Part shown: positions 38,987 to 64,000 of the stretch, piece by piece
How the letters are laid out: each line of letters opens with the position of its first letter
Position numbering within the stretch: position 1 is the stretch's first letter
NCBI GenBank assembly: GCA_022539475.1
Contig: VCMS01000142.1
Span: forward strand, 106,313-170,312
DNA: 64,000 nt
Direction of reading: 5' to 3'
Source of the DNA: Gracilaria domingensis
Taxonomy: Eukaryota > Rhodophyta > Florideophyceae > Gracilariales > Gracilariaceae
Translations under genes and position numbers: made by a program
Notes under the pieces: model-generated
Databases searched by the model: none
Told to the model about the DNA's origin: nothing
Seen by the model: only the letters and a program-made list of their open reading frames with translations

Positions 38987-39111
38987 TGTGGTGCAAAACC
39001 CTCGACGGGAAACAACAAACCGCGTCGCGGACGAGCACCTCAGGGTGTTCAGGCCCTGCTCCCTGTGAAGGGCAGTCGAGCGGCAGAACCCTCCGATAGG
39101 GCCAACACGAG
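38987..39111 (-). repeat. Element 2 3' LTR, left part
   Basis: It begins TGTGGTGCAAAACC directly after the Harbinger frame and is cut by element 1 after ACGAG. Its counterpart is at 50112-50842; the two pieces together make about 856 bp. Confidence 0.75.
39107..39111 (+). other. Target-site duplication, left copy (ACGAG)
   Basis: ACGAG abuts the left end of element 1; the identical ACGAG follows its right end at 50107-50111. A 5-bp duplication is normal for Ty3/gypsy integrases. Confidence 0.95.
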
Positions 39112-39652
39112 TGTCGTATAGCACGATCTGGCTGACCGCACGGACGGAGTGGATTGAGAGGAGTGCCGTGTCGTACGTGTCGGGCTGGCCCGAGCGGATA
39201 GTTGTACGCGTGATTGTCCCCGCATCGGATATCGGTCCCAAACGTACGTAGGACACGTGTGCCGGTCGGACGGTGACAGGCGTAATATAGTACTGTAAGT
39301 TGCTACCTAGAGGCTGCACAGAGGCGGGTTTACCCGATATTTAGGTAGACCCCAACCTCGCCATGACCTCACGTTGTAAACACCAAGCACCCTTTGCCGT
39401 ACGTCTTGCTCGTCAAGTAGCGCTACCGACAGGCCGTTAAGCTAAGTACTACAAGGTTTATTAGGCCGTTCGTACCCTTTTGCACGCTCCTGAACGTGCT
39501 TGGTGATACCAACCGCCCACTCTCCCCGCTGACCGCCCGGTGCTTCCTCCTTACTCCCCGTACGGATTCATTACAGTCGCTCCCTCGAGCCGCAGCTAAC
39601 TCCGTCGCCTCAAGACCGCTTCGGGTTTTCTCCCGATACGTACTATATCACA
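39112..39652 (+). repeat. Element 1 5' LTR (541 bp)
   Basis: It starts TGTCGTATAG and ends CTATATCACA (imperfect terminal inverted repeat with TG...CA). It contains four CGTACG words. Confidence 0.95.
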
Positions 39653-39653
39653 C

Positions 39654-39671
39654 TGGTCTCCCGACCTAGAA
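39654..39671 (+). other. Candidate primer binding site of element 1
   Basis: TGGTCTCCCGACCTAGAA begins one base after the 5' LTR. TGG would pair with the CCA end of a tRNA; which tRNA cannot be decided here. Confidence 0.6.
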
Positions 39672-39727
39672 GTGGAATTCGAGACCGCACGGAGTTTACA
39701 GCACCGAATTGGAAACGATACTCGAAG

Positions 39728-41926
39728 ATGAGCTCGAACGTCCCACACGGAGATCAAGGAGAACGGCAGGTCGCAGAAGACAATGCTGAGTCCACTTTGG
39801 CCGCCCCTCGCGCCGCTTCGGACCATGCCTCGGTAGGCCGCCGGAGCACCCGAAGTACCGCGACGGCCTACGTGACCCCCTCAGAAGAGCCCGAACGGGT
39901 AATCCGTGAAGGCAACTTGCAAACCAAATCGGACCGAAGGAAGAAAGAGAGGAGTAAGAACTCCGGGCCCCCTTTGAGAACTGAGATTGTACCACCTGGG
40001 ACGGCGGCACTCCCGCCTATACCTCAGACCGGACGGAGACCACCCCACGAACTATGGGCCGAAATAGCCCCGTACGCCCTGGAGGGACTTCGCACGGAGA
40101 TCGAGGTTCATGTACCCATGGCGGTCGAATTATATCTCAAGGACCGTATCCCGGAATTGATGCGTCGTGACATCACACCGATCATACCCCGCATCGTGAA
40201 CGATGCGCTGGGATCCAGACGTACCGAAAGCGGAATGCAAGAGAATCTGAGTAACACCTTGGCCGCTTTGGTAGCTAAGCTACCACCCCAACCCCCAAAG
40301 TTTGACACTGACCAAACGGACAACGCACCTAGTCGCGGTGAGAGACAGGGACCGGAAATGGAGAAGGATCCGCAGAGGGATCCGACCGGTGTCTATCTCC
40401 CACCAGTACCCCCTCAGGCTGACCCGGACGGAAGCTCGAGCGATTCCTCCGACGACGGGAGGAATCACCGCAAACGAGGCGGTAAACCGGGCAAGCATTC
40501 CGATTCGGACAGTTCCGTACGTAGACGGAAGAATCGTCGCCGCCGCAGAGGGCGACGACATTCAGATACTGACTCCGCGTCCTCGCGCTCATCATCAGAG
40601 GATGAGCAGACCGACTCGGATGACTCTGGGGACTCTCAAAGCCCCCGAAGAAAGCGCAAGTCCGAACGGCGACGTTCCCGATCGGACAAGTTGACGCTTA
40701 AGCGCCTCCGACCTCTGAACGTCAAGTTCACCAAGGTTGTGGACTACCGTACGTACCGGCTCATTCGGCGCAGCCATAAGTACGACTCGAAGGTAGCACG
40801 CAAGATCGCGCGCTATCAAAAGAAATTGAACGTCCAGATGAAAGGACATTCATTTTCCGGAACGGATCCCATCTCCGTTCTCAATTTCTTGCAGCGGTTC
40901 AAAACCGCTTGCAACCATAACGGACTGACAGAAGGAGCGGCACTGTGGTGCTTCCAGTTCTACCTAACCGGGCCCGCACACGCTCTGGTCCAATCCCGCC
41001 TCATCGGTGAGTCGGGAGCGGTCGACAGGCCTCGCGATGAAGCGCTCCATACGTACGAAGAGGTGGTAAATTTCTTACTGACCACCTACGCCACGGATGA
41101 AGTCATCGCCACGGCGTCCGCAGAGGTGACGTTTTACACCCAGTCGTCAGGGATGTCCGAAACGGAATTCGCCCAGAAGCTCTGGACGAAAGCCCTCCGC
41201 TGTGGTAACGTATACACCGATCGGGACTTGAAGGGCTTATTTGTCGAAGGACTTTTGCCCGCCATACGGTCAAAGGTGCGGAATCACCTCACCACCCATC
41301 CCAGTATCGGATACGACGCGCTTGCCCGTTATGCGGAATCGTACGGCGATACTCACCGCGCCTCACGCCGCCAGTCCGTTCGGGTGGACACGCAGACTAC
41401 GTCTGCTCGGCCTCGTGCCACTTGTACGATAAGGAAGGTGCACCAGGTCGAGTCCCCCTCGGCCTCGACGTATTCCCTGTCGGATGACGACGGCGAAGAT
41501 GTCCTCATCGTTTCCCAGGGGTCTTCCATGCCGTCACCACCCACCACACCAAGTGCAACCACCCCAGCGACTTCCGCACGGTCATTCCCCAGTACGCCCG
41601 GCCAAAGATCGAGCAACCCCCCTGGCGCGGTGTCAAGGGACCGTCCGTGCAGGATTTGCCTCTCGCGAGAGCCGAACTGCTGTCAACTTCTCCCACCGGA
41701 CGTTAAAGCTAAACTCCTCGCAATCCGCGAGCAAAACTACCAACGCCGGCGCGACGAAGGGTACTACGGCACCGGCATATCCACACGGAGAAACACGCCA
41801 CCGCCATCCAATATCGGTTTCCGTAATATTGGCCCGACTCGTACCTCTTACGCCCAGCCTCGGCAGGCAGCCATGCTGGTGGAAGAGACCGTTTCGGAAC
41901 AGGAAAACGAGCCGGAGGATGCGTAG
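39728..41926 (+). CDS. gag: Gag-like protein of element 1
   Basis: 732 residues from ATG 39728 to TAG. The N-terminal third is charged and disordered. An Arg/Ser-Asp-rich region (about 235-325, RRKNRRRRRGRRHSDTDS) could bind nucleic acid. A retrotransposon Gag (capsid) domain lies at about 372-560 (FSGTDPISVLNFLQRFKTAC, FAQKLWTKALRCGNVYTD). There is no standard CCHC zinc knuckle; only a Cys cluster CRICLSREPNCCQ near residue 640. Pol follows in another frame. Confidence 0.9.
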   Translation: MSSNVPHGDQGERQVAEDNAESTLAAPRAASDHASVGRRSTRSTATAYVTPSEEPERVIREGNLQTKSDRRKKERSKNSGPPLRTEIVPPGTAALPPIPQTGRRPPHELWAEIAPYALEGLRTEIEVHVPMAVELYLKDRIPELMRRDITPIIPRIVNDALGSRRTESGMQENLSNTLAALVAKLPPQPPKFDTDQTDNAPSRGERQGPEMEKDPQRDPTGVYLPPVPPQADPDGSSSDSSDDGRNHRKRGGKPGKHSDSDSSVRRRKNRRRRRGRRHSDTDSASSRSSSEDEQTDSDDSGDSQSPRRKRKSERRRSRSDKLTLKRLRPLNVKFTKVVDYRTYRLIRRSHKYDSKVARKIARYQKKLNVQMKGHSFSGTDPISVLNFLQRFKTACNHNGLTEGAALWCFQFYLTGPAHALVQSRLIGESGAVDRPRDEALHTYEEVVNFLLTTYATDEVIATASAEVTFYTQSSGMSETEFAQKLWTKALRCGNVYTDRDLKGLFVEGLLPAIRSKVRNHLTTHPSIGYDALARYAESYGDTHRASRRQSVRVDTQTTSARPRATCTIRKVHQVESPSASTYSLSDDDGEDVLIVSQGSSMPSPPTTPSATTPATSARSFPSTPGQRSSNPPGAVSRDRPCRICLSREPNCCQLLPPDVKAKLLAIREQNYQRRRDEGYYGTGISTRRNTPPPSNIGFRNIGPTRTSYAQPRQAAMLVEETVSEQENEPEDA

Positions 41927-41943
41927 GGGCGTCGTCTCCTCCG

Positions 41944-44900
41944 ATGCCGGATAGCCTCGCCACACCGGGCGACAAGCCCAAACCAACCAGTGCGGACAGT
42001 CAAGAACTGACTCTCGACACCCCAGAACGTATGGACGACACTGTTTTATTCGCGAGTGCAAATTACAAAGTTCACCTTTCCGTGGGCCTCACATCTACCC
42101 TAATGTATCCGCTCACGGGTGTTCTAGATACCGGAGCCGGTCCTTGTCTGATCCACGAGCGGCACCTTCCACCGCGATGGCAATCTCGTCTCCGAACGGA
42201 CGTAAAGCCACGCATTACGGACGCTTCACGCAACCGTATGGAGGTCGTGGGTGTTCTCCCGCTTGCTGTCCGCATTGGAGACCTTCACGTACGAGTACAT
42301 TTCCTTGTGGTATCGAACCTCGCCACAAGCGTCCTACTCGGCACGTCCTTTATCGATCGATACGTATTGGGAATCTTACCCCCAAAACGGACGATCCTCC
42401 TGCGCCATTCACGGCCTGTCTCGATATTGTCCCACGCGTACGGTCCCCACACGCCCACGTCCGTACGGAAATACCCAGTCCAACCGGAGCGGAATGTGCC
42501 CTCTAACAAGATACACGTCGCCCGACCTGTTACGTTACCCCCCATGTCCGAAACCAGGGTACAAGTAACAACCAAGGCGTCCGGTCTGGTATTTCTACAA
42601 TCACACCACCGCACGGGCAGTTCGTTAGAGCTAACACTGCTCGCGAACGGCGTCATGGATCTACGTCCGGACGTTCCCTTCTTCGTTCAAGTTGCTAACG
42701 TCTCGGACCGACCGGTGCACCTCCACAAACGTACCGTCATCGGTCTCGCCCTCCCGTCCCCTATAGCACTAATCAACCCCCTTCACCCAGCTAGGCCGCG
42801 GAGCGACGACTCTCAGGAGGGGGAGGATACCGCTTTAGAAGATACCGCTTTGGACCAACCTCCACGGCGTTCTGACCAGCCCGATTGGCCCCAACGCGTT
42901 CAAATCAGCCCCGAGTATGAGAAAGAACGCGACACAGTCATTGAACTCCTCCGACTGTTCAAGGACATGTGGGATGGCCATTTAGGCAAGATCTCCGCCG
43001 CAAAGCATCGGATACAGCTGGAACCCGGCACCAAGCCGATATTCCAGATGCCTTACCGTGCAGGACCCGCCCGACGGGAACTTGAACGTAAGGAGATAAC
43101 CCAACAGCTGGCAGCAGGGGTGATAGAACCATCGTCCGCAGAATGGGCCAGTCCGGTCGTCTTTGCACAGAAGAAAGATGGAAGCCTACGTTTTTGCGTC
43201 GACTACCGCCGTTTAAATGCCGTGACCGTACGGGATACATACCCTCTGCCAAGAATGGACGAGTGCATAGACTCGTTAGGAGACGCACGGATATTCTCCA
43301 CACTGGACGCCAATAGCGGATACTGGCAGACCGAAGTGGACGAAGCCGACCGGGACAAGACAGCCTTCACGTCCCACATGGGCCTCTACCGCTACGTACG
43401 GATGCCTTTTGGACTCAAGAACGCCCCGGCTACGTTCCAGAGGGCTCTGGACATCATCCTATCACGTGTTAAGTGGCAGTACGCACTGGTTTACCTGGAT
43501 GACGTGATCATCTACTCCAGAACGATAGAAGAACACTACGAACACGTACGGACAATCCTCGACATGCTACGTTCCGCAGGAATTACCCTACGACTGGACA
43601 AATGTCATTTCTTTAGTGGAACGGTCGACTACCTCGCCCATATCATCCGTCCGGGCAAGCTACAGGTGTCTACGAAGACGCAGGAGGCCATCAAGCAGGC
43701 GAAGCCGCCCACTACGCAAACGGAACTCCGCTCGTTCCTGGGTCTTTGCAACGTCTTCCGCCGGTTCGTACAGAACTTCGCACGGATAGCGGCTCCCCTG
43801 AATCAGAAACTGGAAAAGGGGCAGCCTACTAGCTTCGAAACCCTGACCGATACGGAATACGAGGCATTCGACGAACTTCGCCAACGCCTGGTACGGCCCC
43901 CGATACTGGCTATCCCGAAACAAGGATATCCATACGTACTGGACACCGACGCGTGTGACCGTCAGGTTGGCTGTGCCCTCCTCCAGAGGCAACCCGATGG
44001 GGACCTTCTCCCAATCGGATACTGGAGCCGCTCGCTAACCAAGACCGAGCGAAAGTATTCAACGACCGAACGGGAATGCCTCGCTGTAGTATGGGCTATC
44101 CTGCACCTCCGACCGTATTTGGAAGGACAGAAGTTCACTGTTCGCACGGATCACCACTCGTTGAGGTGGATACTGAACCTAGCGGACGCCTCAGGGCGAC
44201 TCGCACGGTGGCGCCTACGCCTGATGGAGTACGACTTCGACGTCATTCACCGACCGGGTATCAAACACCGAGCGGCAGATGCACTCTCACGAATCCAAAC
44301 GGACGGAGAGGACACTTCACCGCTAGACGACGAGGTCCCCTGTTTCCTCATCGACGACCGTCCGGACGACGGCCTCGTTATAACCAACATCACCGTAGAC
44401 GGACAAGAATATACGAACGTCTGCATAGATTGGCCAAGACCCGAACGGGAATCACCAGGAATACCGGAAGTGCTGGCACTGCCCACGGAAGAAACCGAAA
44501 TCGTACCCATCACGCTCGAGGAACTCGTACGAGCTCAGGCGCAGGACCCTTTCTGCCAATCCGTACGGAGAGATGTCGGCAACGGGGTTACCTTGTTCGA
44601 TGTCGACCGAAACGGAGTACTCATACGACGCTCACGCTTGGACGGCGCCCTACAGAAGGTGGTCCCCGAGTCCCTGCAGGCACGCGTTCTTTACCTGGCG
44701 CACTATCCCCGCTTGGTCGGACACCCTGGTGCCACCAGAATGTACGAAACACTACGGAGGGACTTCTATTGGCCCCACATGGCCAACGACGTCTTCCAGA
44801 CCGTACGGGATTGTCGGTCATGCCCAGCCGTCAAAGGAACCCGTTATCGGTCCCAGAAGCTGCTGAAGCTCTTCCCAGCAGCTGGTCCGCTCGAGTTTAT

Positions 44901-46131
44901 TGCCATGGACATAGTGGGACCCTTTACCAGATCCCTTAACGGATGCCAGTATATCCTGGTAATGACCGATCGGTTTAGCAAGCTCTCGCGAGCCATACCG
45001 CTGCGGTCAACCACCGCCCCATTGGTAGCCAAAACGTTCTTGGAACATTGGGTTTACCCGTACGGCATCCCGAACTGCCTACTAACCGACAACGGACCGC
45101 AGTTCACGTCGAAGTTTTTCGAGGCCGTCTGCTCCGCACTGGGCACGAAGCACGTTTCGACCACTACGTATCACCCCCAGACAAACGGGCAGGCCGAACG
45201 GTTCAACAAGACGCTGGTGGAGCGCCTCCGCCACTACGTAGCAGACCACCAAAGGACGTGGCACGCATATGTCCAACCCCTTACGTACGGATATAACCTC
45301 CAGGTCCATAGGTCCATCGGAACCACCCCGTTCGCGGTCGCACTAACGAGGACACCCCCCAGCGTCCTCATCGACGAACCCAGTACGTCCTTGGACCCTG
45401 CAACACCGACTCAGCCGTCCGCAGCCCAGTTGAAGCGATACACACTCAAACTCCTACAGGCGACGCTTCAGACCGCGCGGACAAAGCTGACACGCGCACA
45501 GCAGCGCTACAAGGACGACTTCGATAGGACCGTCCGGTTTCGCCCTACGTTCGCGGAAGGCGAGGAAGTGTACATTGACCGACCCAATTACAAAAGCACG
45601 GAAGAGGACCTAACGGAACAGGAACGAACTCTTCGGAAACTACTGCCGAAGACCACCGGTCCGTTCAAGGTCAAAGCCACAACGGACACTACCGTTACTA
45701 TCGATGAAAACGGTATCGAACACACCGTCTCCATTGATCGCGTCACACGCGCCCCGTCCGCACGGCCTACGAGTAGCCCCGTTACCACCGAACGTACACG
45801 GGAGGAACCCGTCGCTGACCCGGAGGGACCATTCGCGGACGACGTCGTCGACCGCGACGATTTACCGCCACCCGATACGGTTCCTTGCGTCGTGGAACGC
45901 GTCGTAGCGCACCGCGATAGGCCGGACGGAGTCCAATACCGCGTACGCTGGTACGGCTACACCGCCGAATCCGACACCTACGAACCCCCTTCCAACATCC
46001 CGCAGCACTTTGTCGCACGATACTGGCGTCGCCGAAGTCGTACGACATCGGCAACACCCTTAAGGAGGGGGAGAGAAGCAGACGGAAGTCCGTCGGCCGG
46101 ACAAAACGCCACCTACTCCCCAAGCACGTGA
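41944..46131 (+). CDS. pol: Pol polyprotein of element 1 with chromodomain
   Basis: 1395 residues, uninterrupted, from ATG 41944 to TGA. In order: aspartic protease (DTG at 62-64), reverse transcriptase (YPLPRMDECIDSLGDARIFS, active site YLDD at 517-520), RNase H (YVLDTDACDRQVGCALL, TDHHSLRWIL), integrase with HHCC zinc domain (from about 920) and DDE core (FIAMDIVGPF, LLTDNGPQFTSKFF, HPQTNGQAERFNKTL), and a chromodomain (about 1312-1365, YRVRWYGYTAESDTYEP), which places it among chromoviruses. The frame is -1 relative to gag, and the pol frame is open for at least about 48 nt upstream of its ATG, across the gag stop. Either -1 frameshifting or reinitiation is possible; no canonical slippery heptamer is seen. 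It appears intact. Confidence 0.96.
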   Translation: MPDSLATPGDKPKPTSADSQELTLDTPERMDDTVLFASANYKVHLSVGLTSTLMYPLTGVLDTGAGPCLIHERHLPPRWQSRLRTDVKPRITDASRNRMEVVGVLPLAVRIGDLHVRVHFLVVSNLATSVLLGTSFIDRYVLGILPPKRTILLRHSRPVSILSHAYGPHTPTSVRKYPVQPERNVPSNKIHVARPVTLPPMSETRVQVTTKASGLVFLQSHHRTGSSLELTLLANGVMDLRPDVPFFVQVANVSDRPVHLHKRTVIGLALPSPIALINPLHPARPRSDDSQEGEDTALEDTALDQPPRRSDQPDWPQRVQISPEYEKERDTVIELLRLFKDMWDGHLGKISAAKHRIQLEPGTKPIFQMPYRAGPARRELERKEITQQLAAGVIEPSSAEWASPVVFAQKKDGSLRFCVDYRRLNAVTVRDTYPLPRMDECIDSLGDARIFSTLDANSGYWQTEVDEADRDKTAFTSHMGLYRYVRMPFGLKNAPATFQRALDIILSRVKWQYALVYLDDVIIYSRTIEEHYEHVRTILDMLRSAGITLRLDKCHFFSGTVDYLAHIIRPGKLQVSTKTQEAIKQAKPPTTQTELRSFLGLCNVFRRFVQNFARIAAPLNQKLEKGQPTSFETLTDTEYEAFDELRQRLVRPPILAIPKQGYPYVLDTDACDRQVGCALLQRQPDGDLLPIGYWSRSLTKTERKYSTTERECLAVVWAILHLRPYLEGQKFTVRTDHHSLRWILNLADASGRLARWRLRLMEYDFDVIHRPGIKHRAADALSRIQTDGEDTSPLDDEVPCFLIDDRPDDGLVITNITVDGQEYTNVCIDWPRPERESPGIPEVLALPTEETEIVPITLEELVRAQAQDPFCQSVRRDVGNGVTLFDVDRNGVLIRRSRLDGALQKVVPESLQARVLYLAHYPRLVGHPGATRMYETLRRDFYWPHMANDVFQTVRDCRSCPAVKGTRYRSQKLLKLFPAAGPLEFIAMDIVGPFTRSLNGCQYILVMTDRFSKLSRAIPLRSTTAPLVAKTFLEHWVYPYGIPNCLLTDNGPQFTSKFFEAVCSALGTKHVSTTTYHPQTNGQAERFNKTLVERLRHYVADHQRTWHAYVQPLTYGYNLQVHRSIGTTPFAVALTRTPPSVLIDEPSTSLDPATPTQPSAAQLKRYTLKLLQATLQTARTKLTRAQQRYKDDFDRTVRFRPTFAEGEEVYIDRPNYKSTEEDLTEQERTLRKLLPKTTGPFKVKATTDTTVTIDENGIEHTVSIDRVTRAPSARPTSSPVTTERTREEPVADPEGPFADDVVDRDDLPPPDTVPCVVERVVAHRDRPDGVQYRVRWYGYTAESDTYEPPSNIPQHFVARYWRRRSRTTSATPLRRGREADGSPSAGQNATYSPST

Positions 46132-46218
46132 CGGGCTCCAACCGACACGGATACGACCACTGACGCGCGACGGTTGGCCGGATATTCGCCCTAACCGTAC
46201 GCTCATTGGCTCACCCCC

Positions 46219-46224
46219 TTTATT
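46219..46224 (-). terminator. Putative AATAAA polyadenylation signal for ORFX1
   Basis: AATAAA read on the minus strand, about 130 bp past the ORFX1 stop codon and before it would run into the pol gene. Comparable to the AATAAA after ORFX3. Confidence 0.5.
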
Positions 46225-46356
46225 TTTTGATCTAGTGAAACGCCGCCTTTTCCGATATCGGCACTTTACGTCAACGGATTCAACCTGACGTACGCAAAGG
46301 AAGAATGCACAGAACAACACAAGTTTACTCAAGGACACGCACGACATTGGAACCGT

Positions 46357-48696
46357 CTACGCACCACCCGGTCCCTTCTTCTGGATACTCTTCACTGCCG
46401 GCAACGTCTTGGATACGCCACGACCACGGCCACGCGTACCACCACGACCACGCCCCCCACGAGGTGTCGGAATGCCCGAACGGTAGGCCGACGCCGAGCC
46501 CCCTCGGGAACTGACCGGCTGGAACGGACTTGAAGTACCCGGCCAAGGAGCGTTGGCTACCACGACCCTCACGGATGACTGCGGCTGACTAGGCGCGCTC
46601 GCCGCCGGAACGTCACTGGCAACCACGCCTGACGCACCCGCACCGGTACCTGGCGTCACCGGAGCAGGAGCGCTAGGAGCTTCCACACCGGACGCAACTT
46701 CCGCCATTGGGGTATCCCCGGGCTCCACGTCGTCACCAACTGCTACAGCACCGCCACCGGACGCTTGAGCGCCACCGTCCCCCGTCGCAGCGACACCTTC
46801 CGTACCGGCGACAGCCTCACCACCGTCTCCCCCAGCTCCTTCCGGACTCACCGGAGGTGCTGGAGGGTTCAGAGTGACCCCGTCAAACATGGACGCACGC
46901 GCCCGTCTCAGGTTCTGAACGATCTGGTTGACCTGATTCTCCACCGTGGCCTGGTCGTGCAACCCTTGATAGGTCTCACCGACCAACTCGTCCAACGTCG
47001 GAGCCTGCGTCTCCATAACCTGTCCGTCCGGCGCAGTACCCTCCCCGAAACCGGCCAGCATACCCTGCTCGTACGAACCGAGAACGCGCAGGCTGTGTTC
47101 GCGAAGGTAACCGAGTAGGTCCAACATGCCCTGAGCCTGCTCACGCAGGCACGCTTCGGAGTTCGCCGCGCGACGCACCCAAGTACGCGCAGCCGTCAGG
47201 GCGCCCGGCACGTCAGTCGGCTCCGGAATCCCACGCGGAACGCATACAGCCCGCAAGGCGTTGAGCAACGTCTGGAGGCGCTCGCCAGAGACTTCGACAC
47301 CCATTGCGTCCAATTGGCGGCCTGGGAGCCCGACCTGGACCTCTCGCTCCGTACGCACAGGTACCTTCACGATCTCCGGATCAGGCTCCGGCTCGGCCGC
47401 AGAGGATAACTGAGGCAGACCGGCTTGGACCCCGCTCTCACGCCTCGGCACTGGAGGAGCGGCTTCGAAGTCTTCTTCCATGTACCCATGCGGGAAGTAG
47501 TTCGGCCTATCCGCGAATGGCCAAGGCGGAAGCTGTCCCGTTGGCAATAGCACTCGGTCGATCGGCAACGCGCCCGTACCGGATGCGGGCATAGTAGGGA
47601 ACGAGTCCTCAAAGTAATCGTACCAGAGGAACCCCGGCGTCTGCGACCAGTCCGTCTCCAAAGAGTACTGAAGGAGCTTCTCACCGACCGCAGGGGGGTA
47701 AGAGGTCCCCCGCAGGATGTTCTGCAACCCCATTTCGGCCAAGATGCATACCAATTTGTACGGGAGAGGGAACAACCGTCCGTACTGCGGCGAATCGTCC
47801 GTGTTGTACAGGCGCTGATCGCCCGCACGGGTGAAGACTTCCACACCGTCGCTGGCCGCCTGGAGGAACGCCATGAAAGCGAAAACTGCCCACTCGGCGT
47901 ACAGGATCTGCAAGACCGCACGGCTCAACGCTCCTTGGGATAGCAGTTCCCGCGAATGGTATGCCACCACGGACGGCGTCGGTACGGAAAGGTTGCGTTC
48001 GACCTCCACAGACTTCCACGCCTCGGTCATACCGTAGTATACCGTCGTACGGTCGTTCTTCGCGACGTCGAAGTACTCGACGTTGTGCTAGGAGTAGAAG
48101 AAACGGTGTGAACCCCGGATGCGGGCTTCCGTCGCGGCGTTGCTCCCCCAATGCTCGCGGTCTAACCAGTACAGCTGGTCGTACGGCGGTTCGAACATCA
48201 CCAACGCGAGAGGGTTACCGTTTTCGGGCGGAAAGTTCGCGTCGGAATTGAGCCGGTGCATCAGGCTCTGAAGTCGGCGTTGATACTCGCGCTCCTCGGG
48301 GCACCTTAAGTACGGCATATCGGCTATCCCGAACGTCCTTTCGTCCGCACGACCGACGATTCCAGGAAGGTGATTCCAACGTGCCTGCCAAGCTTCCATT
48401 CGCGTACGCTTTTGGTTACGGCTCGCCACCTCACGTAATGGGAGCGAGACCGGAATGGCTGCGAAGCGACGCGCATCGAAGTACTCCGCATTGTCCTGAA
48501 TGTACTCGTTGACCGTGATCGGAACCTGCTTCGACCGACGCGGGGCCTGGCTCGTACGACGACTACGATGGTCGAAGTGCTGACCAGGAAGCGGCATAGA
48601 CCGAAACGGACCGCCGCCACCGGACACACTCGGTTGATTCGGATTACTCGCCATCGCAGACGGCGAGGCGGACGACTGGCTTGATTGCGAACCCAT
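46357..48696 (-). pseudogene. ORFX1: antisense extra gene of element 1, with one in-frame TAG
   Basis: It reads against gag-pol, between pol and the 3' LTR. From ATG 48696 (or 48654) a single frame runs to TAG 46357, interrupted only by TAG 48090-48088; in all 780 codons. The flanks of the internal stop (RFFYS|HNVEYF) align with the uninterrupted ORFX3 (TMFLFHNVEYW), so it is one gene. Shared blocks with ORFX3 are ADMPYLRC/SDLPFIRC, FEPPYDQLYWLDREHW, VPTPSVVAYHS, AEWAVFAFMAFLQA and MGLQNILRGTSY. The second half is Ala/Gly/Val/Pro-rich, ending in an Arg-Gly tail (RGGRGRGGTRGRGRG). No known family is recognised. The stop may be a mutation, read through, or removed by splicing (CTTCTACTCCTAG resembles a 3' splice site). 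Confidence 0.75.
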
Positions 48697-48728
48697 CGGG
48701 GGCAACGGATGACGGGTGGAAGGGAGCT

Positions 48729-50842: not shown

Positions 50843-50895
50843 TCTCTCCCTTCTCAGGCTGAGACACCGACTCCGTCGGCTCGATACGCCTCGCG

Positions 50896-56200: not shown

Positions 56201-56560
56201 AGGAGTCCTTTCTTGTAACGGATTTCGAAGTCGAATTCCGACAAGCGAAGTCTCCACCGCATCAAGCGGCCAGATGGCTCTGCTATAGAGAGTAGCCAGC
56301 GTAATGCCAAATGATCGGTATGAACAATGAAGCGGGTCCCCATAAGATAGGGCCGCAGTGTCTGTAACGCCCAGACAACCGCCAAGCACTCCTTCTCGGA
56401 TACCGAGTAATTCCTCTCGTGAACGTTGAGGCTCCTTGACCAATACCCAATTGGCAATCGCTCGCCATCATTGGTGGTCTGGAATAGGGCACAGCCGACT
56501 TGGTAGTCGCTCGCATCCGTATCTACTGCATATGGCAAACCAGCCCTAGGCAGGGATAAA
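53203..56560 (-). pseudogene. pol: Pol of element 2, truncated by insertion of element 3
   Basis: The frame enters at 56560 within the RT/RNase H region and ends at TGA 53203; protease and RT are not in the window. RNase H (YAVDTDASDYQVGCALF, TDHLALRWLLS), integrase HHCC (HLSHYAKLSAHPGG, CSDCAKNR) and DDE core (FVAIDLLGEF, LLSDNGPQFTAKFF, HPQSNGQVERFNRTM) are intact. Between integrase and the C-terminal chromodomain (YRVRWYGYASSEDTHEP) lies a Ser/Pro/Arg/Glu-rich disordered stretch of roughly 450 residues, much longer than in pol1 or pol3. An apparent ATG further upstream (56664) lies in element 3 LTR sequence and is accidental. Confidence 0.9.
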
Positions 56561-57132
56561 TGTGGTATAGCCGATCGGTGCGAGCTGCTAGTGGGGAGCC
56601 CTGCGTGGGCTCGACCCGGCGGAGGAGTGAAACACGTGACACCTAATAGGTCGGCAGCACCCACCGTTGCCTATAGTGCACGGTGACCAAGTGGTAAATA
56701 CGCCTGCACTGGTGTGCGGCAGGCACGTATAACCTTCGAGGTCAGCAAAACTATTAGAGGACTACTAGACTTACCAATTGGTGACTGTAGAACCGAACTG
56801 GTGTCAAATTAGCCTAGTTGGTGCTTGACTTTACCATTTGGTGTGGGAGGTTGGCGTCTCGGGGGTTTAGTACACCCGAGCGCCCCTCCGGCTCTCACGG
56901 GCCTAGTGCCACGTGGGCCACCGGGAGGTGCATTTGTGGTGCACCACCCCGGCCACATATCTACCCTACCTAGTAATTATTAATTCTAAATTATCGAGAA
57001 TAGACTAATTAGTCCTGTCCAAGCCTGCGCTTGCGCGTCCCACGTGGTACAGTAGACACACGTGCCCGGGAGCTCGTGACGTCACCACTTGGTCTTGTAG
57101 AGCCCCCGTTGATCTGGCCGAGCTATACTACA
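56561..57132 (-). repeat. Element 3 3' LTR (572 bp)
   Basis: It starts TGTGGTATAGCC and ends GAGCTATACTACA on the plus strand. The left edge is exact because pol2 is interrupted there; the right edge is defined by the matching terminus and the adjacent tract. It holds four exact ACCANNTGGT motifs. Confidence 0.85.
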
Positions 57133-57148
57133 GACCCCCCTCCTACCG
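57133..57148 (-). other. Polypurine tract of element 3
   Basis: On the plus strand GACCCCCCTCCTACCG; on the element strand GGTAGGAGGGGGGTC directly before the LTR start TGTAGTATAG, the same arrangement as in element 1. Confidence 0.8.
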
Positions 57149-58131
57149 ACAGGCACGCCCCGTGGCTGCGAAGGTTTCACGGCGTTTGCCGCCTTTTCAC
57201 CAAACGGTCGTCGGCGCGCATCGCCTGGCGCACGGCGCGTCTCGCGATGACGCGAAGATGGCGCGGTGCACGGCGCGGTTCGCCACATGCACTGCAGCGC
57301 CATTACCCACGCCGCCGTACCCCTCTGTGGTAGGTGCGATCGTACCTTACGTCCCTCGTGGTATTGGAACGCGAAACCGCGAACCGCGACCATTCAGGTT
57401 GATCTTGTCGCGCGCCTGGTACCACGTGGTTGTCTTCGCCTCTTTGGTCCCTCCCGGAGGAGTCCGTCACTCCATCTTCCCCTGTCCGTCCTCCCCCTGG
57501 GCGGGTTAGTCCCGGCTTACCAGTTGGTTTCGAGCCTCCCTTCGGTGGGGTTCGCAGTTGTCAACCGATCGGCACACGGCCCCCTCGTGGTGTCGCTCCT
57601 ATTCTCTGTTGGACACTTGGTCTTGTGCCGTACTGAGGTGATACCTCGTTGGTTCCGACACGTACTGTCTCTCCGCTTGAGTGAGGGCGCCACTGGGGTG
57701 TCGTTGCCTTGGGCGGCCGCGTCGAGGGTGAGGAGACTCCTGCCCGTGGCTCTTCAGACTTCGTGACCATACCGGTGCTGACGCCGCTTCTACCTAGTGG
57801 TCTGCCTCATCGGGGTGTTCAGGCTTGATTCAGGTCCAGCCGAGGGGTTTACCCGACTGCGTGGCGTTCAGCGCCCCTCCACCTGGTTCCTCGCGGTCTC
57901 CTTTCGTCCCTTAGGTTCCCTCTGGGGTGGTTGTACCCTCCCTGGTTCACGGAACCTGTCCAGCCGGCGCTCCACCCTGGTCATTTTCACGGTGTGTCAG
58001 CTCGCTCGAGTGGCGCGCCCGTTCTCTGTGACCCCTCAGGTTTCAACTAGTCATCCAATTGGTGGTGTTCCCCCTCTCGGTTGGTATCCTTCGTGGCACG
58101 CTCTCGCTCCAACTCGCGCCTTTTATACCTC
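57149..58131. other. Non-coding 3' region of element 3 (ORFX3 promoter side)
   Basis: About 980 bp without a supported gene; several long frames are chance. It contains exact ACCANNTGGT motifs (57421, 57519) and several one-mismatch copies, and a TATA word (58124-58127) just before ORFX3. Confidence 0.6.
58124..58127 (+). promoter_or_regulatory. TATA-like box upstream of ORFX3
   Basis: TTTTATACC about 41 nt before ATG 58168 (5 nt before ATG 58132). Confidence 0.4.
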
Positions 58132-60858
58132 ATGGGTGATCAACCCGCTTCCCCAACGGGGTGGTCAATGACGTTCGAACGCCGTGAAGACGGTGCCGAG
58201 GAGGGCATCGCGCGCGCCCTTCCCGTTGTGGTGGACCCCGGGGGTGAGACGGCGCCGTTTCAATCGAATTACCACGTGGTTGACTCTTCGCAGCCCTGTC
58301 TGCCGTCCCAGACCCGTACACCTGTGTCCTTTCCATCGGGCGCCGAGGCTCTCGTGGAGGCCAACCACTTGGTACTGGAGGAGCCGCACTTCGACCCTAT
58401 AAAGGGATATTCGGCTTCTGAAGTCTCCCCCTCGGCGGAGGTCAACCGTTCGGTTCGCGAAACTGTTGCCTCCCGGTCGAGGATGTCTGGCAAGACCCCT
58501 GGGGTAGCGCGCGGCCGCGGAGGTGGCATCTTCAAGCCTAACACGCGGTCGAGTACGCGTTCTCGTCAAGACCCTTACGGTCGCGGTGGGTATGATCCCT
58601 ACGCAGCCGCCGCGGGCCCGAGCAACGTTAACCCTCTTGCGGTGGCCGGTACGGTGGAGGCTCAACAGCTGAATCCTCATGACCTTAATAGGACGCACGG
58701 GCAGCCGCATGCCCACTATGGTGCACGCTTTGCCGATATCTCCGCCGAATTGGTCGCTCTGGGGAACTGGCCTTTCCACATCAGTTCCTCACTCTGTCCC
58801 TTGCGGTTCCGCCACATGGGTCTCACGCAGTATACCGCAATTGCCCGTTGGGATTGTCGCCGGTTGGAGGCGGTGCCTATGGCACCTCCTCCACCACGCA
58901 AGGGCGAGAAGCAGAGCCGGTTCGGTCGACAACAGTGTTTCCATGAGCGGCAGCGACACACGAAGTTTCTATACTACATCCCCGTGGCCGTACCGTCGGA
59001 TCTCCCCTTCATCCGCTGCGATGGGGAGGTCCACTACTTCCGCCGTTTGGTAGATATCCTTCACCGCTTGGACGAACCTGCTACGCACATCGAGGTCGAT
59101 CTGGAGTACGTCGCGTTTGAGCGCCCTTTAGACACCAATTATTGGACTGACCGTGGGAGGTGGGCGACCGATGCGATGGCTGAGAGCCGTGTTCGTCACC
59201 GTAACAACCGTACGCGGACCATGTTCCTGTTCCACAACGTTGAGTATTGGTCGCAGAGCGACCACAACCGCCGGACATGGTATGTCAATCGACCCTCTTG
59301 GTGGGACCACTATGAAGTATGTCAGTGGCTGGAAGTGCCGACCCCGCCGGTCCTTGCGTACTTTGGTAGTAGCATCTCCCTAGAGAGGAACAACGCATAT
59401 GCCGTTTGGTCGGTCGCGCGCAGCGAGTGGGCCGTCATGGTGGCTATCCTCGCCCTTCAGGCTTCCGTGGAAGGTGTGACTTGGGACACGCGCTGCCCTG
59501 ACAAGTCTGTCGGGATCAGCGGAACTCAACCAGTTGGTCGTATCTTCAATATTCCCAACGATGTGGTCGGCGACATTCGTGCCATGGGGCTCTCCAACAT
59601 CGTGGAGGGCACCAAATATACTGCGCAGCAGTTGGATGGCTACCTCACTGCGGTAAGTAACCACAATTGGGGGCCTGAACAGGGTTGGGATGTCTACGAC
59701 CCGGAGGTTCATAGCATCGTGCCTCTCCAACAGCAGCACATGGCTGGCGAAGACCCATTTGGTAATGACGATACCGTGATGGTGGCTGCCGAGAACTATG
59801 AGTCCCCCGCATTGCCTCCGTCGGCACCTGTACAGGCTACTCCTCCGACCAGCGTGGCTGCGCCTGTTCCAAGTGGTCCGGCGAACCCTCAGGCGGTTGC
59901 TCACCCTCCCGGACGGGCTGCCCAGGGGCCTCTTCGGGTTGGTTTCCAGTCGCTTCCGGTGAATCCGGTGCCCCCTGGTGGTGATAGTGGCGCGATACGG
60001 AGCGCTCTGGCTCGTCTCAACCACGCCTCGATGGTGCACTTCAACCGTCCTGGTCTCAATGACATCCTCACCGCTGTGGATACTCTTACCAACTTGCTCC
60101 CCGTGGTTGCTCACCACGAGCGGCGCACTTCTGAGCTGCGACAGTTCCGCGACTACTTCCAGCGCAATCTCTACCGTGAGGTGACAGCCTATGTTGGTCA
60201 GTTGAGCAACCTTGTGGAAGGCCACGCGCCGTTACATCGACCCCCTGTGGAAAGTTTCAACCCGTACGCTCCTGCGTCACAGCAACCTGCGACCCCAATG
60301 GTAGGCTTTGGTGGCCTTGGTACGTATCAACTCCCTGGTGGACCTCCTGGTGGTGATCCTGCGGCACCTTTCCATACTCCGCTTGGTCCTCACAACGTTC
60401 CTCTTCCTCCAGCAAGTACTGGGACAGGAGCACCAAGTGGTTTCTCAACTGGTTTCCGTTCGGCTCCGCTTCCGCCGACGTCCGGTGCTCCTAGGCCGCC
60501 TACTGGTCTGACCCCCGGTGCAGGGCCGTCTAGTGGTCTTGCTCCTCCGACCTCTGGTGGCATCCCTCCGTCTAGCTTACCGCCTTCCTTCCATCCACCC
60601 ACTGGTCCTGCGAATACCATGCCGGTAGTCAGCAGCGGTACCCCTGCGGGACCTGCTGGTACTTCTGCTCCCTTACCAAGTGGTGGTGCGCCACCGAGCG
60701 CGGCTAGCGGCGGGGGCGGAAGCTCCGCCGGACCTATGTCGGTGTCCTCTGGTCGTGGAGGTTCCGCTTCATCTCGCGGGACCTCCCGTGGACGTGGTCG
60801 CGGTCGTGGAACCAGTCGTGGACGCGGACGTGGCCGTGGGTCCTCCAAGGCCTCCTAA
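58132..60858 (+). CDS. ORFX3: intact antisense extra gene of element 3
   Basis: The best preserved ORFX: 908 residues from ATG 58132 (or 895 from ATG 58168, better placed behind the TATA word) to TAA 60858, without internal stop. Central region about 200-520 carries the blocks shared with ORFX1: SDLPFIRC, FERPLDTNYWTDRGRW, FHNVEYW, VPTPPVLAYFG, SEWAVMVAILALQAS, MGLSNIVEGTKY. The last ~250 residues are Pro/Gly/Ser-rich and end in RGRGRGRGTSRGRGRGRG, an Arg-Gly tail typical of RNA-binding or nucleolar proteins. I recognise no catalytic domain. It is transcribed opposite to pol3 and followed by AATAAA. Proposed role: an element-specific nucleic-acid-binding factor (hypothesis). Confidence 0.85.
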   Translation: MGDQPASPTGWSMTFERREDGAEEGIARALPVVVDPGGETAPFQSNYHVVDSSQPCLPSQTRTPVSFPSGAEALVEANHLVLEEPHFDPIKGYSASEVSPSAEVNRSVRETVASRSRMSGKTPGVARGRGGGIFKPNTRSSTRSRQDPYGRGGYDPYAAAAGPSNVNPLAVAGTVEAQQLNPHDLNRTHGQPHAHYGARFADISAELVALGNWPFHISSSLCPLRFRHMGLTQYTAIARWDCRRLEAVPMAPPPPRKGEKQSRFGRQQCFHERQRHTKFLYYIPVAVPSDLPFIRCDGEVHYFRRLVDILHRLDEPATHIEVDLEYVAFERPLDTNYWTDRGRWATDAMAESRVRHRNNRTRTMFLFHNVEYWSQSDHNRRTWYVNRPSWWDHYEVCQWLEVPTPPVLAYFGSSISLERNNAYAVWSVARSEWAVMVAILALQASVEGVTWDTRCPDKSVGISGTQPVGRIFNIPNDVVGDIRAMGLSNIVEGTKYTAQQLDGYLTAVSNHNWGPEQGWDVYDPEVHSIVPLQQQHMAGEDPFGNDDTVMVAAENYESPALPPSAPVQATPPTSVAAPVPSGPANPQAVAHPPGRAAQGPLRVGFQSLPVNPVPPGGDSGAIRSALARLNHASMVHFNRPGLNDILTAVDTLTNLLPVVAHHERRTSELRQFRDYFQRNLYREVTAYVGQLSNLVEGHAPLHRPPVESFNPYAPASQQPATPMVGFGGLGTYQLPGGPPGGDPAAPFHTPLGPHNVPLPPASTGTGAPSGFSTGFRSAPLPPTSGAPRPPTGLTPGAGPSSGLAPPTSGGIPPSSLPPSFHPPTGPANTMPVVSSGTPAGPAGTSAPLPSGGAPPSAASGGGGSSAGPMSVSSGRGGSASSRGTSRGRGRGRGTSRGRGRGRGSSKAS

Positions 60859-60896
60859 GTCACCTCGTGGTTCCCTCTCGTGGATTCTTCTCGACT

Positions 60897-60902
60897 AATA
60901 AA
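60897..60902 (+). terminator. Putative polyadenylation signal of ORFX3
   Basis: AATAAA 39 bp after the ORFX3 stop, followed by T-rich sequence (TTCTTTTGTTTTCCTG), as at a poly(A) site. Confidence 0.6.
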
Positions 60903-60996
60903 GTGTCTTGCACTGTGTTCTCTGATCTTCTTTTGTTTTCCTGTTAGGTTAGTTAGTTAGCTTTTCGTGTAGCGTGGCGTTCAACGGCTTCGATAA

Positions 60997-61007
60997 CCCC
61001 CCCCCCC
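60997..61007 (+). repeat. C11 tract between ORFX3 and pol3
   Basis: A homopolymer of 11 C lies five bases before the pol3 stop codon on the plus-strand map. Confidence 0.95.
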
Positions 61008-61011
61008 TTCC

Positions 61012-63998
61012 TTAGCGACGCGTACCACGCGAAGCAATACCAGTTGGTGGGGGCGTTCGCCCTTGTTTGCGCCAGTATCGGATGATGAAGTTGTTAGGGA
61101 TATGACCAGGTGGTTCCATAGAGTCGTGCTCGGGCGACCATCCATACCATCTTACCCGGTAGCGCATACCCTTTGTGGTGTGTTCGTGACCTACAATGGT
61201 GTCAATAGCGCACTCCTGAGTGTCTACTTGAGGGTGTGACTCTTCCATTTGGTCATGGGGTGCGTGGCTCCCCGTGGGTGGTGTGACTCGTTGGTCTTGC
61301 CGAGGCTCGATCTCCTGTGCCGCTTGGGTCGTGGGGTCAGCCGTTACGGCTCTGGTGGAAGGTTGACCGCTCGGCTGACTCATCATAGGAGGGGGTATGG
61401 GAGACGTTTGCTCCCTCTCTGCTTCCTGCTGCGTTGGCTCACCTATTGGTTGTGCATTCGCTGTCGTCGGTTGTGCGGCCTTGACAATCCTGTCGATGGA
61501 GACCGTGTTCTCCAAACCTTCCATTATGACCGTAGCGGTATGCTCGTCGGAGCAAATCACCTTGTATGGTCCCGTGGACTTGGGTAGTAGTTTAGAATTG
61601 ATATCCTCCTCAAGGCGGATGTCCTCTTCCATCTCCGCTGGGGTTGGTCGCTTACCTTTTGGTGGCACGTCAAGGAAGACCATGTCTCCTGCTACCACTT
61701 TGGTCACTTTGCTCACCGTTCGGTCATAGTCCGCTTCATACCGTTCTTGGGCTGCTGTCATCTTAACTTTGGCAGCAGCCAAAGCGGCGCGTAACTTCTG
61801 GAGTATGTCTCTCTTGACCTTCGCCGGTGTGAGTGTCCCGGCCGCTTCCGAGCGGTCAGGTCCGGGCTGGACGATAATACCATGTGGTGTTCGCGAAAGT
61901 ACCAGGTCGAATGGGGTTGTTTGAGTGACCCTGTGGACCTGGAGGTTGTACGCATATGTCAATGGTTGGACATACTCCGACCATGTGGTTTGGTGCTCTT
62001 CGACATAGTGCCGTAGGCGTGCCACTAGGGTCTTATTGAAGCGTTCCACTTGGCCGTTTGTTTGAGGATGATAGGCCGTGGTAAAGTAGTGCTTGACCCC
62101 TAGCATTGTACAAACCGCCTCGGAGAACTTAGAAGCTAGGTTCGAACCGTTATCGGTCAGTAGGTACATGGGAGCACCGTACGGGTAGACCCAATTCTCC
62201 AGGAAGGCTGTCGCTAGTGTCGTTGCCGTTTGGTTCTTCAGAGGTATGGCTCTGGTGAGCTTTGTGAACCTGTCGGTTATGACTACTACAAAGCGATAAC
62301 CCTCTGAGGTCTTGGGCAGGGGCCCCAGTATGTCGATTGCTACGAATTCCAGGGGCCCCGCCGCCGGGAATAGCTTTAGGTACTTCCTGTGCTTCGCCAC
62401 ACCACCTCCGGTCTTAATGCACGAATTGCATTGCGCCACATAGGTATATACATCGTTAGCCATATGCGGCCAGTAGAATTGCCTCCGAAGGGTATAGTAC
62501 AACCGCGTGGCTCCAGGGTGCCCCGAAAGCCGTGGATTGTGTGACAGATATAACACCCTTTGTCTTAATGACTCAGGTACGACCTTCTGGAGAGCTCCGT
62601 CTAAAGGTGAGCGTCTGATGAGGTACCCATTGTGGTCGACGTCGAAATGAGAATCCTTCCTTCCAAGTACGTCAGCGAGCGTTTTGCACAACCTATCGGT
62701 CGATTGTTCGCGTAAGAATTCCTCACGGGTGATTGGAGCGTGTTCCCCTTCCTCCACAGGAAGGAGGGTCTCCACTACCACTTGGTACGTACTGTCATCA
62801 TGCCAGTATCCCTTCAGAACTTCATTGACCTCGTGGTTAGCTAGTTCTATAGTAAAGCATGGGATGTCGTCGTCCACTGGGTCAGTGTCCAATCCTTCGG
62901 TATTCAACCGGGACAATGCATCCGCCACTCGGTACTTGACCCCGGGGCGGTACTGCACATCGTACTCAAACTCCGAGAGTCTCAGACGCCATCGGGCCAG
63001 ACGACCCGATGCGTCCGCCAAGCCTAATATCCACCTCAAGGAGTCGTGATCCGTTCGGAGCGTGAAGCGCACACCATATAGGTAAGGACGTAGCATGAGC
63101 ATGCTCCAAACAACCGCTAGGCATTCCTTCTCCGTTACGGTGTAGTTCTGCTCCGCTTGGTTAAGAGCTCTACTCCAATACCCAATTGGTGCGAGCTTGC
63201 CGTCCTCCTGTTCCTGCATTAGGCAGCAACCTATTTGGGCGTCCGACGCATCCGTGTCCAGTGTATACGGGAGTCCCGTTTTGGGCAATGCCAGTACCGG
63301 TGGGGAGAGAAGCGCTGCTTTCAATGTATAGAACGCCTCTACCTCGTCCTCTTCCAGGTGGTCAAAGTGTGTGGGCTGCCCCTTCTGCAACCTCCGGTTC
63401 AAGGGTGCGGCTATCTTTGCAAAACCCTTGATGAACCGCCGGTAGACGTTGCATAGACCTATAAAGGATCGTATGTCCGTCTGCGACGTAGGGAGCTTCG
63501 CTTCCTGTACCGGTCGGATATTCCGTTTGGTCACTTCGAGTTTCCCGGGGCTTATTGTATGCCCTAGGTACTCTACCTCTTGGTTGAAGAACATACACTT
63601 TCGTAGTTTGAGGGTCACGCCTGCCTCTTGTAGCAACTGCAGTACCACTTGGACGTGCGAGAAGTGCTCCTCTATGGACCTCGAGTAGATGACTACGTCA
63701 TCTATGTATACCAATGCGGTTGTCCACTTCACTTTAGACAGTATGATGTCTAACGCCCTTTGGAAGGTAGCGGGGGCGTTTCTTAAACCAAGCGGCATGC
63801 GTAAGAAGCGATACAGGCCTGCGTGGCATGTAACCGCAGTCTTATCACGGTCACCCTCTGGTATTTCGATCTGCCAATACCCGCAGTTGGCGTCCAGTGT
63901 GGTAAAGATGTTCGCATCTCCTAGGGAGTCGATGCATTCATCCATCCTCGGGAGGGGTACGAGTCCCTTACCGTTTACGCATTAATTTTTCTGTAGTC
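61012..63998 (-). pseudogene. pol: Pol of element 3 (5' part outside the window), one nonsense codon
   Basis: The minus-strand frame leaves the window at 63998 and ends at TAA 61012. Near the edge the RT reads DYRKINA, then TAA (63977-63975), then TVRDSYPLPRMDEC; the homologous pol1 has Val at this site, so it is a premature stop in the RT domain. The remaining ~980 residues are intact: RT active site ALVYIDDVVIYSR, RNase H (LDTDASDAQIGCCLM), integrase HHCC and DDE (FVAIDILGPL, LLTDNGSNLASKFSEAV, HPQTNGQVERFNKTL), and a C-terminal chromodomain (YRVRWYGWSPEHDSMEP). Unless the stop is bypassed this copy cannot make its own RT. Confidence 0.9.
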
Positions 63999-64000
63999 AA

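Follow-up and report, generated by a model that had tools for sequence, protein, structure and literature searches.

We analysed a 64,000-nucleotide stretch of the genome of the red alga Gracilaria domingensis (GenBank assembly GCA_022539475.1, contig VCMS01000142.1, positions 106,313 to 170,312 of the forward strand), hereafter the window. The right part of the window consists of three nested chromoviruses, E1, E2, and E3, of which E1 is complete and E2 and E3 are partial (Table 1); each carries an extra gene, here called ORFX, and many short inverted CC…GG motifs. E1 is inserted in the 3′ long terminal repeat (LTR) of E2 with the 5-bp target duplication ACGAG, and E3 interrupts the pol gene of E2 (boundaries by eye). 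The chromovirus domain set of reverse transcriptase (RT), ribonuclease H (RNase H), integrase, and C-terminal chromodomain is complete in E1, and the RT of E3 is partial. Paired LTRs with a short target duplication were found in E1 only, the 5′ ends of E2 and E3 lying beyond the window. The two E1 LTRs are 99.8% identical, a polypurine tract precedes the 3′ LTR (read from the sequence), and the LTR ends of E3 are similar by eye to those of E1. The E1 gag matched no Pfam family above its cut-off. The gag and pol frames of E1 overlap by approximately 100 bases in different frames (41827–41926), which suggests programmed frameshifting.

In each element, ORFX is encoded on the strand opposite to pol and is located between pol and the 3′ LTR. 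Relatives of ORFX1 and ORFX2 elsewhere in the genome have open frames of 787–827 and 610 amino acids (aa), respectively. ORFX1 and ORFX3 are clear homologues (31% identity over 297 columns, 1e-37), and ORFX2 and ORFX3 are distant ones (22% identity, 3e-9); the direct comparison of ORFX1 with ORFX2 gave no significant match (0.041). In the assembly (77.9 Mb, 680 contigs), at least 118 matches to ORFX3 and at least 146 matches to ORFX2 were found, and the ORFX1 search returned its own family and many clades at roughly 34–47% identity with open frames of up to 600–830 aa (lower bounds). At least 34 matches of the E2 family tie at 605.3 bits to ORFX2 with 98% identity, most of them with 610-aa frames, and these identical scores are a sign of recent amplification. 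A listed ORFX3-family match was located within 4.5 kb downstream of 45 of the 56 E3-type integrases, always on the opposite strand; the remaining 11 had no ORFX among the 107 of 118 match rows used.

The ratio of nonsynonymous (dN) to synonymous (dS) change was determined for ORFX of E3 and the related locus L073, the one pair with measurable divergence. The values (dN 0.10, dS 0.76, ratio 0.134, 879 aligned codons) indicate purifying selection. Synonymous change was saturated in three other comparisons, the L036/E2 pair was nearly identical and thus uninformative (dS 0.015, ratio 0.68), and the dN/dS value for pol of L066 and L068 is unreliable, the L068 pol being split across two frames in the fetched stretch. 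A sequence search of the PDB with ORFX gave nothing significant (best E 0.083), a protein-collection homology search with ORFX3, whole and core, found no relatives, and no relatives of ORFX or pol were found in viral contigs. A nine-row ORFX alignment retrieved one homologue from the protein collection, Gracilariopsis chorda BWQ96_08351 (1.8e-88), with 44% identity over 61% of the query. The protein-collection searches scored approximately 8,000 top word-sharing candidates (7,992 for the nine-row alignment), and remoter or crowded-out relatives may exist.

We scanned all dinucleotide pairs at spacings of 2–30 in each element to describe the motifs. The strongest pair in every element was an inverted CC-Nk-GG with an element-specific k: E1 peaked at k = 5 (z 7.8) and k = 4 (z 5.0), E3 at k = 4 (z 11.6) and k = 5 (z 6.1), and E2 at k = 9 (z 9.2) and k = 8 and 6 (z 6.9). 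The reversed pair GG-k-CC (k 0–20) stayed within z 2.5 in E1 and E3 and reached up to z 3.0 in E2; at k = 22 it had z 3.6 in E1. In 39 kb of host-like DNA, CC-k-GG was under the first-order Markov expectation at every k of 0–20. In regards to longer motifs, CCGTACGG occurs 9 times in the window against 0.93 expected, 7 of these within E1, and the E1 counts of CCG-N2-CGG and CCG-N3-CGG were 44 and 26, respectively, against 6.6 expected for each (one LTR counted). ACCANNTGGT occurs 18 times in the window against 0.78 expected, and the 16 sites within E3 compare with 0.15 expected (p 4e-27). The richer E3 motifs are ACCA-N2-TGGT (16 sites) and ACC-N4-GGT (35 vs 2.2 expected).

The sites lie in coding and non-coding DNA alike. 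We used a codon-preserving control, in which synonymous codons were shuffled within each frame so that the protein and the codon usage were kept. Under this control CCG-N2-CGG was in excess in E1 pol (21 vs 5.6) and E1 gag (9 vs 1.7), ACCANNTGGT in E3 pol and in ORFX3 (5 vs 0.5 in each), and CCG-N7-CGG in E2 pol (10 vs 2.6), and ten pooled host frames gave only single matches (CCGTACGG, 1 vs 0.1). For most frames of gag, pol, and ORFX, neither protein content nor codon usage accounts for the CC…GG signal.

E2 contains a lattice of hairpins of the form CCNN-N3-6-NNGG, with 112 sites against 10.4 expected and a density of 15–22 per kb across the LTR, ORFX2, the gap, and pol. The enrichment increased with stem length for stems with a CC/GG base: 96 vs 35 (2.7-fold) for 3-bp stems with loops of 3–6, 108 vs 13.5 (8-fold) for 4-bp stems with loops of 3–8, and 29 vs 1.9 (15-fold) for 5-bp stems with loops of 3–5. 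In codon-preserving shuffles the hairpins remained in excess in pol (52 vs 8.0) and ORFX2 (31 vs 7.2). The initial annotation of this DNA had reported a private palindrome in each of the three related ORFX-bearing elements. These palindromes are confirmed, far above chance and with corrections: the E1 motif is real and is better described as CCG-N2-CGG/CCG-N3-CGG within a general excess of CC-N4-5-GG, and the E2 motif is present not as one letter palindrome but as CC-N5-10-GG hairpins.

We fetched 5 kb from each of six further ORFX clades (L065–L070) to examine other families of the genome, and all six carry an inverted CC…GG motif, L065 weakly. CCG-N4-CGG was counted 24 times in L066 (2.1 expected, 7e-18) and 33 times in L068 (2.3 expected, 9e-27), CCA-N-TGG 15 times in L067 and 11 times in L069 (1.4 expected), and CCG-N2-CGG 36 times in L070 (2.7 expected, 6e-28). 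Codon-preserving shuffles were scored for four motif types and the hairpin, on ORFX and pol for L066–L069 and on ORFX alone for L065 and L070; every clade had at least one frame for which none of 200 shuffles reached the count of the own motif. Mild side signals were CCNN hairpins in the pol of L066, L068, and L069 and ACC-N4-GGT in the pol of L067. These results support a code that is kept by selection at the nucleotide level.

A table of motif densities, for which 4 of the 30 ORFX3 loci and 3 of the 30 ORFX2 loci were taken from the searches, was near-diagonal, each motif being densest in its own families. Copies of E3 have 12–22 ACCANNTGGT sites per 10 kb, host DNA has 0.5, and the other families have 0. 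The density of the E2 hairpin was 156–174 in E2 copies, 4–33 in other ORFX families, and 5 in host DNA. The E3 copy L013, which lies approximately 2 kb from an E2 ORFX match, had 58 E2 hairpins per 10 kb. Off the diagonal, CCG-N4-CGG, for instance, was above the host level in E1 (18) and E2 (14), compared with 48–66 in its own families. None of the five motifs was above chance in 3 kb each of L071 and L072, two Ty3 families with no ORFX nearby among the matches listed; L071 has a chromodomain by eye and a G+C content of 0.42, and none was seen by eye in L072. The power at 3 kb was high for most families, the worst windows being those of L069 (p 0.58), E1 (0.03), and L067 (0.01). A genome-wide count of CCG-N4-CGG pairs (1353 vs 721 reversed) was set aside as not being a clean control.

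In the families other than E2 the sites are letter-specific, with centres of 1–4 nt. Exact sites were 9- to 16-fold over chance and CCG-N3-CGG 4- to 8-fold. With most single substitutions at the CC/GG letters the excess dropped to 0–2.6-fold, the adjoining A or T tolerated change, and compensatory pairs were mostly not favoured.

A tree was built from 11 ORFX rows, namely 10 motif-typed rows and the G. chorda protein. The support values were 93/97 for the CCG-N4 group, 82/94 for CCG-N2, 98/97 for ACCA-N2, and 99/99 for the CCA-N1 group, which includes the G. chorda protein; the E2-type ORFX is on a long, uncertain branch. There are five motif types (CCGNNCGG, ACCANNTGGT, CCANTGG, CCGNNNNCGG, and the CCNN hairpin), and they correspond to five groups of ORFX. 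Two outcomes that would have spoken against the initial annotation were looked for. Motif type and ORFX clade did not vary independently over these 10 rows, and elements without ORFX did not show an equal motif density, the two Ty3 families without a listed ORFX nearby having no motif above chance in 3 kb each.

The positions of the sites were compared within two pairs of loci. A 2-kb block of pol is 93% identical between L066 and L068, whose ORFX genes have approximately 66% DNA identity (BLASTN), so that ORFX was either swapped as a module or evolved much faster. In the ORFX part (61% identity in global alignment) CCG-N4-CGG occurs 9 and 16 times, respectively, with only 4 sites in common, and reversed controls gave 0–2. 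E3 and L073 (82% identity) have ACCANNTGGT sites in common (4 of 6 and 4 of 5), and their CC-N4-GG pairs were kept no better than reversed ones (34/51 vs 17/24). The few common sites of L066 and L068 and the latter result indicate that turnover, and not strict conservation, is the rule, sites being gained and lost while the motif density stays roughly the same. The co-evolution of motif and protein that had been proposed initially fits this turnover at steady density and the selection on one ORFX pair; ORFX as the reader of the motif we infer.

The best explanation of these results, which we hold tentatively, is a family-specific self-recognition code that probably acts at the DNA level through a dimeric element-encoded reader, with ORFX as the prime candidate. 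Each sampled ORFX-bearing family has filled its own coding and non-coding DNA with inverted CC…GG sites, gap length and neighbouring letters differ between the families, and a dimeric protein encoded by the element would read the sites. Family-specific gaps in dimeric sites are expected of a DNA-binding homodimer with an evolving dimer geometry, and letter-specific palindromes with centres of 1–2 nt (CCANTGG, CCGNNCGG, and ACCANNTGGT) are more in keeping with a DNA-binding dimer than with a hairpin. The likeliest and most economical reader is ORFX, which would be transcribed in antisense from the 3′ side, because it is found with the pattern, is conserved as a protein where this is measurable, and has clades that match the motif types. 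It may coat the copies or the complementary DNA (cDNA) of its own family at the DNA level, which would most simply keep the copies expressed or would separate own copies from the many related co-resident families. In regards to E2, the protein might recognise extruded or single-stranded hairpins; alternatively, the whole system might act on RNA or cDNA and have been missed by the wobble and strand tests.

We consider it possible, at somewhat less than even chances, that the code is one of spacing. Homologous accessory proteins would all recognise CC…GG, and the families would be separated by the gap (3, 4, 6, or hairpins with a gap of 7–10) and by the adjoining letters, with a density of approximately 12–174 sites per 10 kb over both coding strands. 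Fungal zinc-cluster dimers such as Gal4 and Leu3 combine constant CCG/CGG half-sites with a specificity that is set by spacing; ORFX is without a zinc-cluster domain by Pfam, and the logic alone is compared. The initial annotation had proposed ORFX and palindromes as a self-recognition system, of which the family-specific motifs and their match with ORFX clades stand; its reader, its anti-silencing purpose, and its DNA target we infer.

Several results weigh against the dimeric DNA reading and against ORFX as the reader. E2 is the main obstacle to the former because its sites look like hairpins. The two inner positions may hold any bases that pair (z 11.6 and 8.5 against a permutation control) and accept all four Watson-Crick pairs, and such free but pairing positions indicate hairpin recognition rather than plain reading of double-stranded DNA. 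Hairpins of 4 bp with other bases were mildly raised in E2 (pol 47 vs 28.3, ORFX2 24 vs 16.0), as they were in several E1 and E3 frames and were not in three host frames. Sense-type wobbles exceeded antisense-type wobbles at one E2 stem position (11 vs 5), and pairing just outside the motif was depleted in E1, E2, and E3 as at the end of a stem (z −2.3 to −2.8), a depletion that was absent in the host control and in L065–L070. Compensatory excess was observed for pair 3 of ACC-N4-GGT in E3 (14 vs 4.6) and, mildly, for the outer pair of CCG-N4-CGG (24 vs 10.1). In L066 and L068, C/G swaps were tolerated at pair 2 of CCG-N3-CGG (4.2- and 3.2-fold), and the first inner pair was coupled (z 4.8 and 3.8), with the other Watson-Crick letters at chance.

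Of the results that bear on ORFX, the motif was enriched in the pol of L067 and L069 with ORFX at chance (1 vs 0.4 and 1 vs 1.1), and in the ORFX1 frame CCG-N2-CGG was not significant (4 vs 2.3) and CC-N5-GG was in excess (36 vs 18.3) in codon-preserving shuffles. CCG-N2-CGG was weak in L065 (12 vs 1.4, no CC-k-GG z above 2.5), part of this stretch belonging to another transposon. ORFX matched no Pfam family above cut-off, including PF04195, and the AlphaFold2 model of the ORFX3 core from five rows was useless (predicted local distance difference test, pLDDT, 34). The ORFX-less control comprises two families of 3 kb each, with ORFX absent among the matches listed. Pol and ORFX clades disagreed in no sampled family, so that the sites could be read by integrase, Gag, or a further factor; with this and the small number of families, the correspondence of motif and ORFX clade indicates concordance and not causation.

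The main rival holds that the sites are signals for packaging or coating that are scattered along the genomic RNA or the single-stranded cDNA, namely CC…GG stem-loops bound by Gag or ORFX, by which each family would package RNA of its own. We regard it as unlikely, and it retains its rank because base-pairing hairpins such as those of E2 are not predicted by simple recognition of double-stranded DNA. Much of its evidence comes from E2, where the enrichment extends over stems of 3, 4, and 5 bp with all Watson-Crick pairs accepted inside, a hairpin recurs per approximately 59 nt through the LTR, pol, and ORFX2, and pairing is depleted beyond the stem; the Arg-Gly-rich tails of ORFX1 and ORFX3, seen in their translations, also count in its favour. 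The sites of the E1, E3, and L067/L069/L070 types, however, are too short to fold stably (centres of 1–3 nt, arms of 2–4 bp). The evidence on strands is divided. With flank and loop weights trained on E2 pol, the ORFX2 region showed a preference for the sense strand (z 3.3) and the LTR did not (z 0.7), whereas there was no overall G·U tolerance, and sense-type wobbles summed over the four stem positions of E2 were no commoner than antisense-type wobbles (64 vs 72), nor were they commoner in E1 or E3. On either strand, the folding of E1, E2, and E3 was slightly better than that of shuffled sequences; the folding z-scores are alike on the two strands in E1 and E2, and the lean of E3 to the sense strand (−0.44 vs −0.22) is within error. 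An asymmetry of the flanks between strands, strong at first, was not significant after conditioning on the background P(A after GG) and P(T before CC) and pooling over nine families (p 0.33 and 0.26).

The sites could instead be read by Gag or by integrase with its C-terminal extension, or serve integration, for example in target immunity against self-insertion, with ORFX hitch-hiking; we consider this improbable. The agreement of pol and ORFX in all sampled families and the location of the L067 and L069 sites in pol, not ORFX, are in its favour. Against it, the Ty3 family L071, which by eye has a chromodomain and for which no ORFX was listed nearby, is without such sites. Both nested insertions in the window hit another family (E1 and E3 into E2), which also speaks for it, but two insertions prove nothing on target choice. 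It is very unlikely that the pattern is imposed by a host factor that binds DNA or RNA, or by a mutational process. The CC…GG core is common to all sampled ORFX families of this one genome, but one factor would not yield five geometries in co-resident elements and none in host-like DNA or in L071 and L072, and a mutational process would ignore reading frames and is not expected to centre on CC/GG. An artefact of codon usage, base composition, or repeats is scarcely credible: its one support is identical LTR copies, two of the seven CCGTACGG sites of E1 being the same site in both LTRs, and E1 was later counted with one LTR. The codon-preserving, dinucleotide, and reversed-motif controls contradict it.

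The VANC proteins of the Arabidopsis VANDAL elements remove methylation and bind short motifs that are specific to each family and located in tandemly repeated non-coding DNA (PMC5735166). As in the present elements, an accessory protein is combined with a short motif that is amplified within its own family, dense, different between families, and diverging together with the protein (PMC5735166). The carrier here is an LTR chromovirus and there a Mutator-like DNA transposon, and the motifs here are palindromic, scattered, and also present in gag, pol, and ORFX frames, whereas those of VANDAL are in non-coding tandem repeats in the same orientation (PMC5735166). The parallel that had been drawn with VANDAL and VANC therefore holds for the enrichment of a family-specific motif in own copies and not for carrier, motif layout, or location; ORFX matches no Pfam family, and the likeness is one of logic.

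Retand elements have an antisense open reading frame between pol and the 3′ LTR that contains TRP28 (PF04195), predicted to bind DNA, and Grande and RIRE2, as cited in the same report, are further plant Ty3 elements with antisense accessory frames (PMC11963269). They resemble the present elements in the extra antisense gene between pol and the 3′ LTR and its conservation across families, and differ in belonging to a non-chromovirus lineage with PF04195, whereas the elements here have chromodomains and no Pfam match for ORFX; the part of that report drawn on mentions tandem repeats and no family-specific dispersed palindromes (PMC11963269). The dispersed packaging signals of RNA viruses are many degenerate stem-loops with a common recognition motif, distributed genome-wide, and are similar to the sites of E2 only (PMC6281560). 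The carrier here is a retroelement, there is no overall G·U tolerance, a strand preference is weakly hinted at, and in most families the palindromes are letter-specific and of insufficient length for folding. In the titles and abstract openings listed by the literature searches, no dispersed family-specific palindromes of LTR elements were described.

These results touch on how related co-resident retrotransposons tell their own DNA or RNA apart and on how LTR elements might fight silencing. The specificity is readable from the sequence, several families of one genome having their own geometries that match homologous antisense genes, with a nucleotide-level code superimposed on two opposing coding strands, and the co-evolution of protein and DNA (or RNA) is directly testable clade by clade. 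If ORFX is the reader, a VANC-like logic would extend to LTR elements. If the spacing code is true, it would form a second, nucleic-acid-level layer of identity on the mobile genome that co-evolves with an antisense gene, and it could support orthogonal anti-silencing, packaging, or target immunity.

Table 1. Positions of the nested elements, their genes, and their motifs in the window.
Feature	Position	Strand	Basis or remark
E1, complete chromovirus	39112..50106	+	two 541-bp LTRs; target duplication ACGAG at 39107-39111 and 50107-50111
E1 5′ LTR	39112..39652	+	LTR comparison, sequence reading
E1 gag open frame, stop to stop	39533..41926	+	assigned by position
E1 motif CCGTACGG, 7 sites	39558..50019 (first to last)	.	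motif count
E1 pol: protease, RT, RNase H, integrase, chromodomain	41827..46131	+	Pfam RVP, RVT_1, RT_RNaseH, Integrase_H2C2, rve, Chromo
ORFX1, antisense to E1 pol	46357..48729	-	one in-frame stop in window copy
E1 3′ LTR	49566..50106	+	LTR comparison, sequence reading
E2, minus-strand element	38987-39111 + 50112-56667	-	split by E1; boundaries by eye
E2 3′ LTR, outer part, split by E1	38987..39111	-	sequence reading; boundary inferred, second LTR beyond window
E2 3′ LTR, inner part	50112..50842	-	sequence reading; boundary inferred
E2 hairpin lattice CCNN-N3-6-NNGG	50112..56667	-	112 sites when 38987-39111 is included; one per 59 bases on average
ORFX2, antisense to E2 pol	50863..52695	+	one in-frame stop in window copy
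E2 pol, 3′ part: RNase H, integrase, chromodomain	53203..56670	-	Pfam; RT not within window
E3, minus-strand element	~56668 to beyond window end	-	boundaries by eye
E3 3′ LTR	56668..57132	-	boundaries inferred
E3 motif ACCANNTGGT, 16 sites	56686..62786 (first to last)	.	motif count
ORFX3, antisense to E3 pol	58051..60858	+	open frame, 935 aa
E3 pol, 3′ part, RT to chromodomain	61012..63981	-	Pfam; RT partial; 5′ end beyond window

Rfam and tRNA scans of the window gave no matches. The left part of the window contains host-like single-exon genes of red-algal appearance, with plastid-type genes among them (by eye), and a frame resembling a fragment of a PIF/Harbinger-type transposase (37873–38688, by eye) is left-adjacent to the nested elements. 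In the stretch fetched for L065, a pogo/Tc1-type transposase-like frame (3193–4408, by eye) lies beside the ORFX of this clade. A minus-strand coding frame at 19035–20714 contains a repeat spaced at 102 bp, with three copies at 19744–20092, and a repeated PPPLYPEDEIQP-type peptide (by eye). In the host-like positions 1–38980, periodic pairs of the GC-4-GC and CC-4-CC type were raised.

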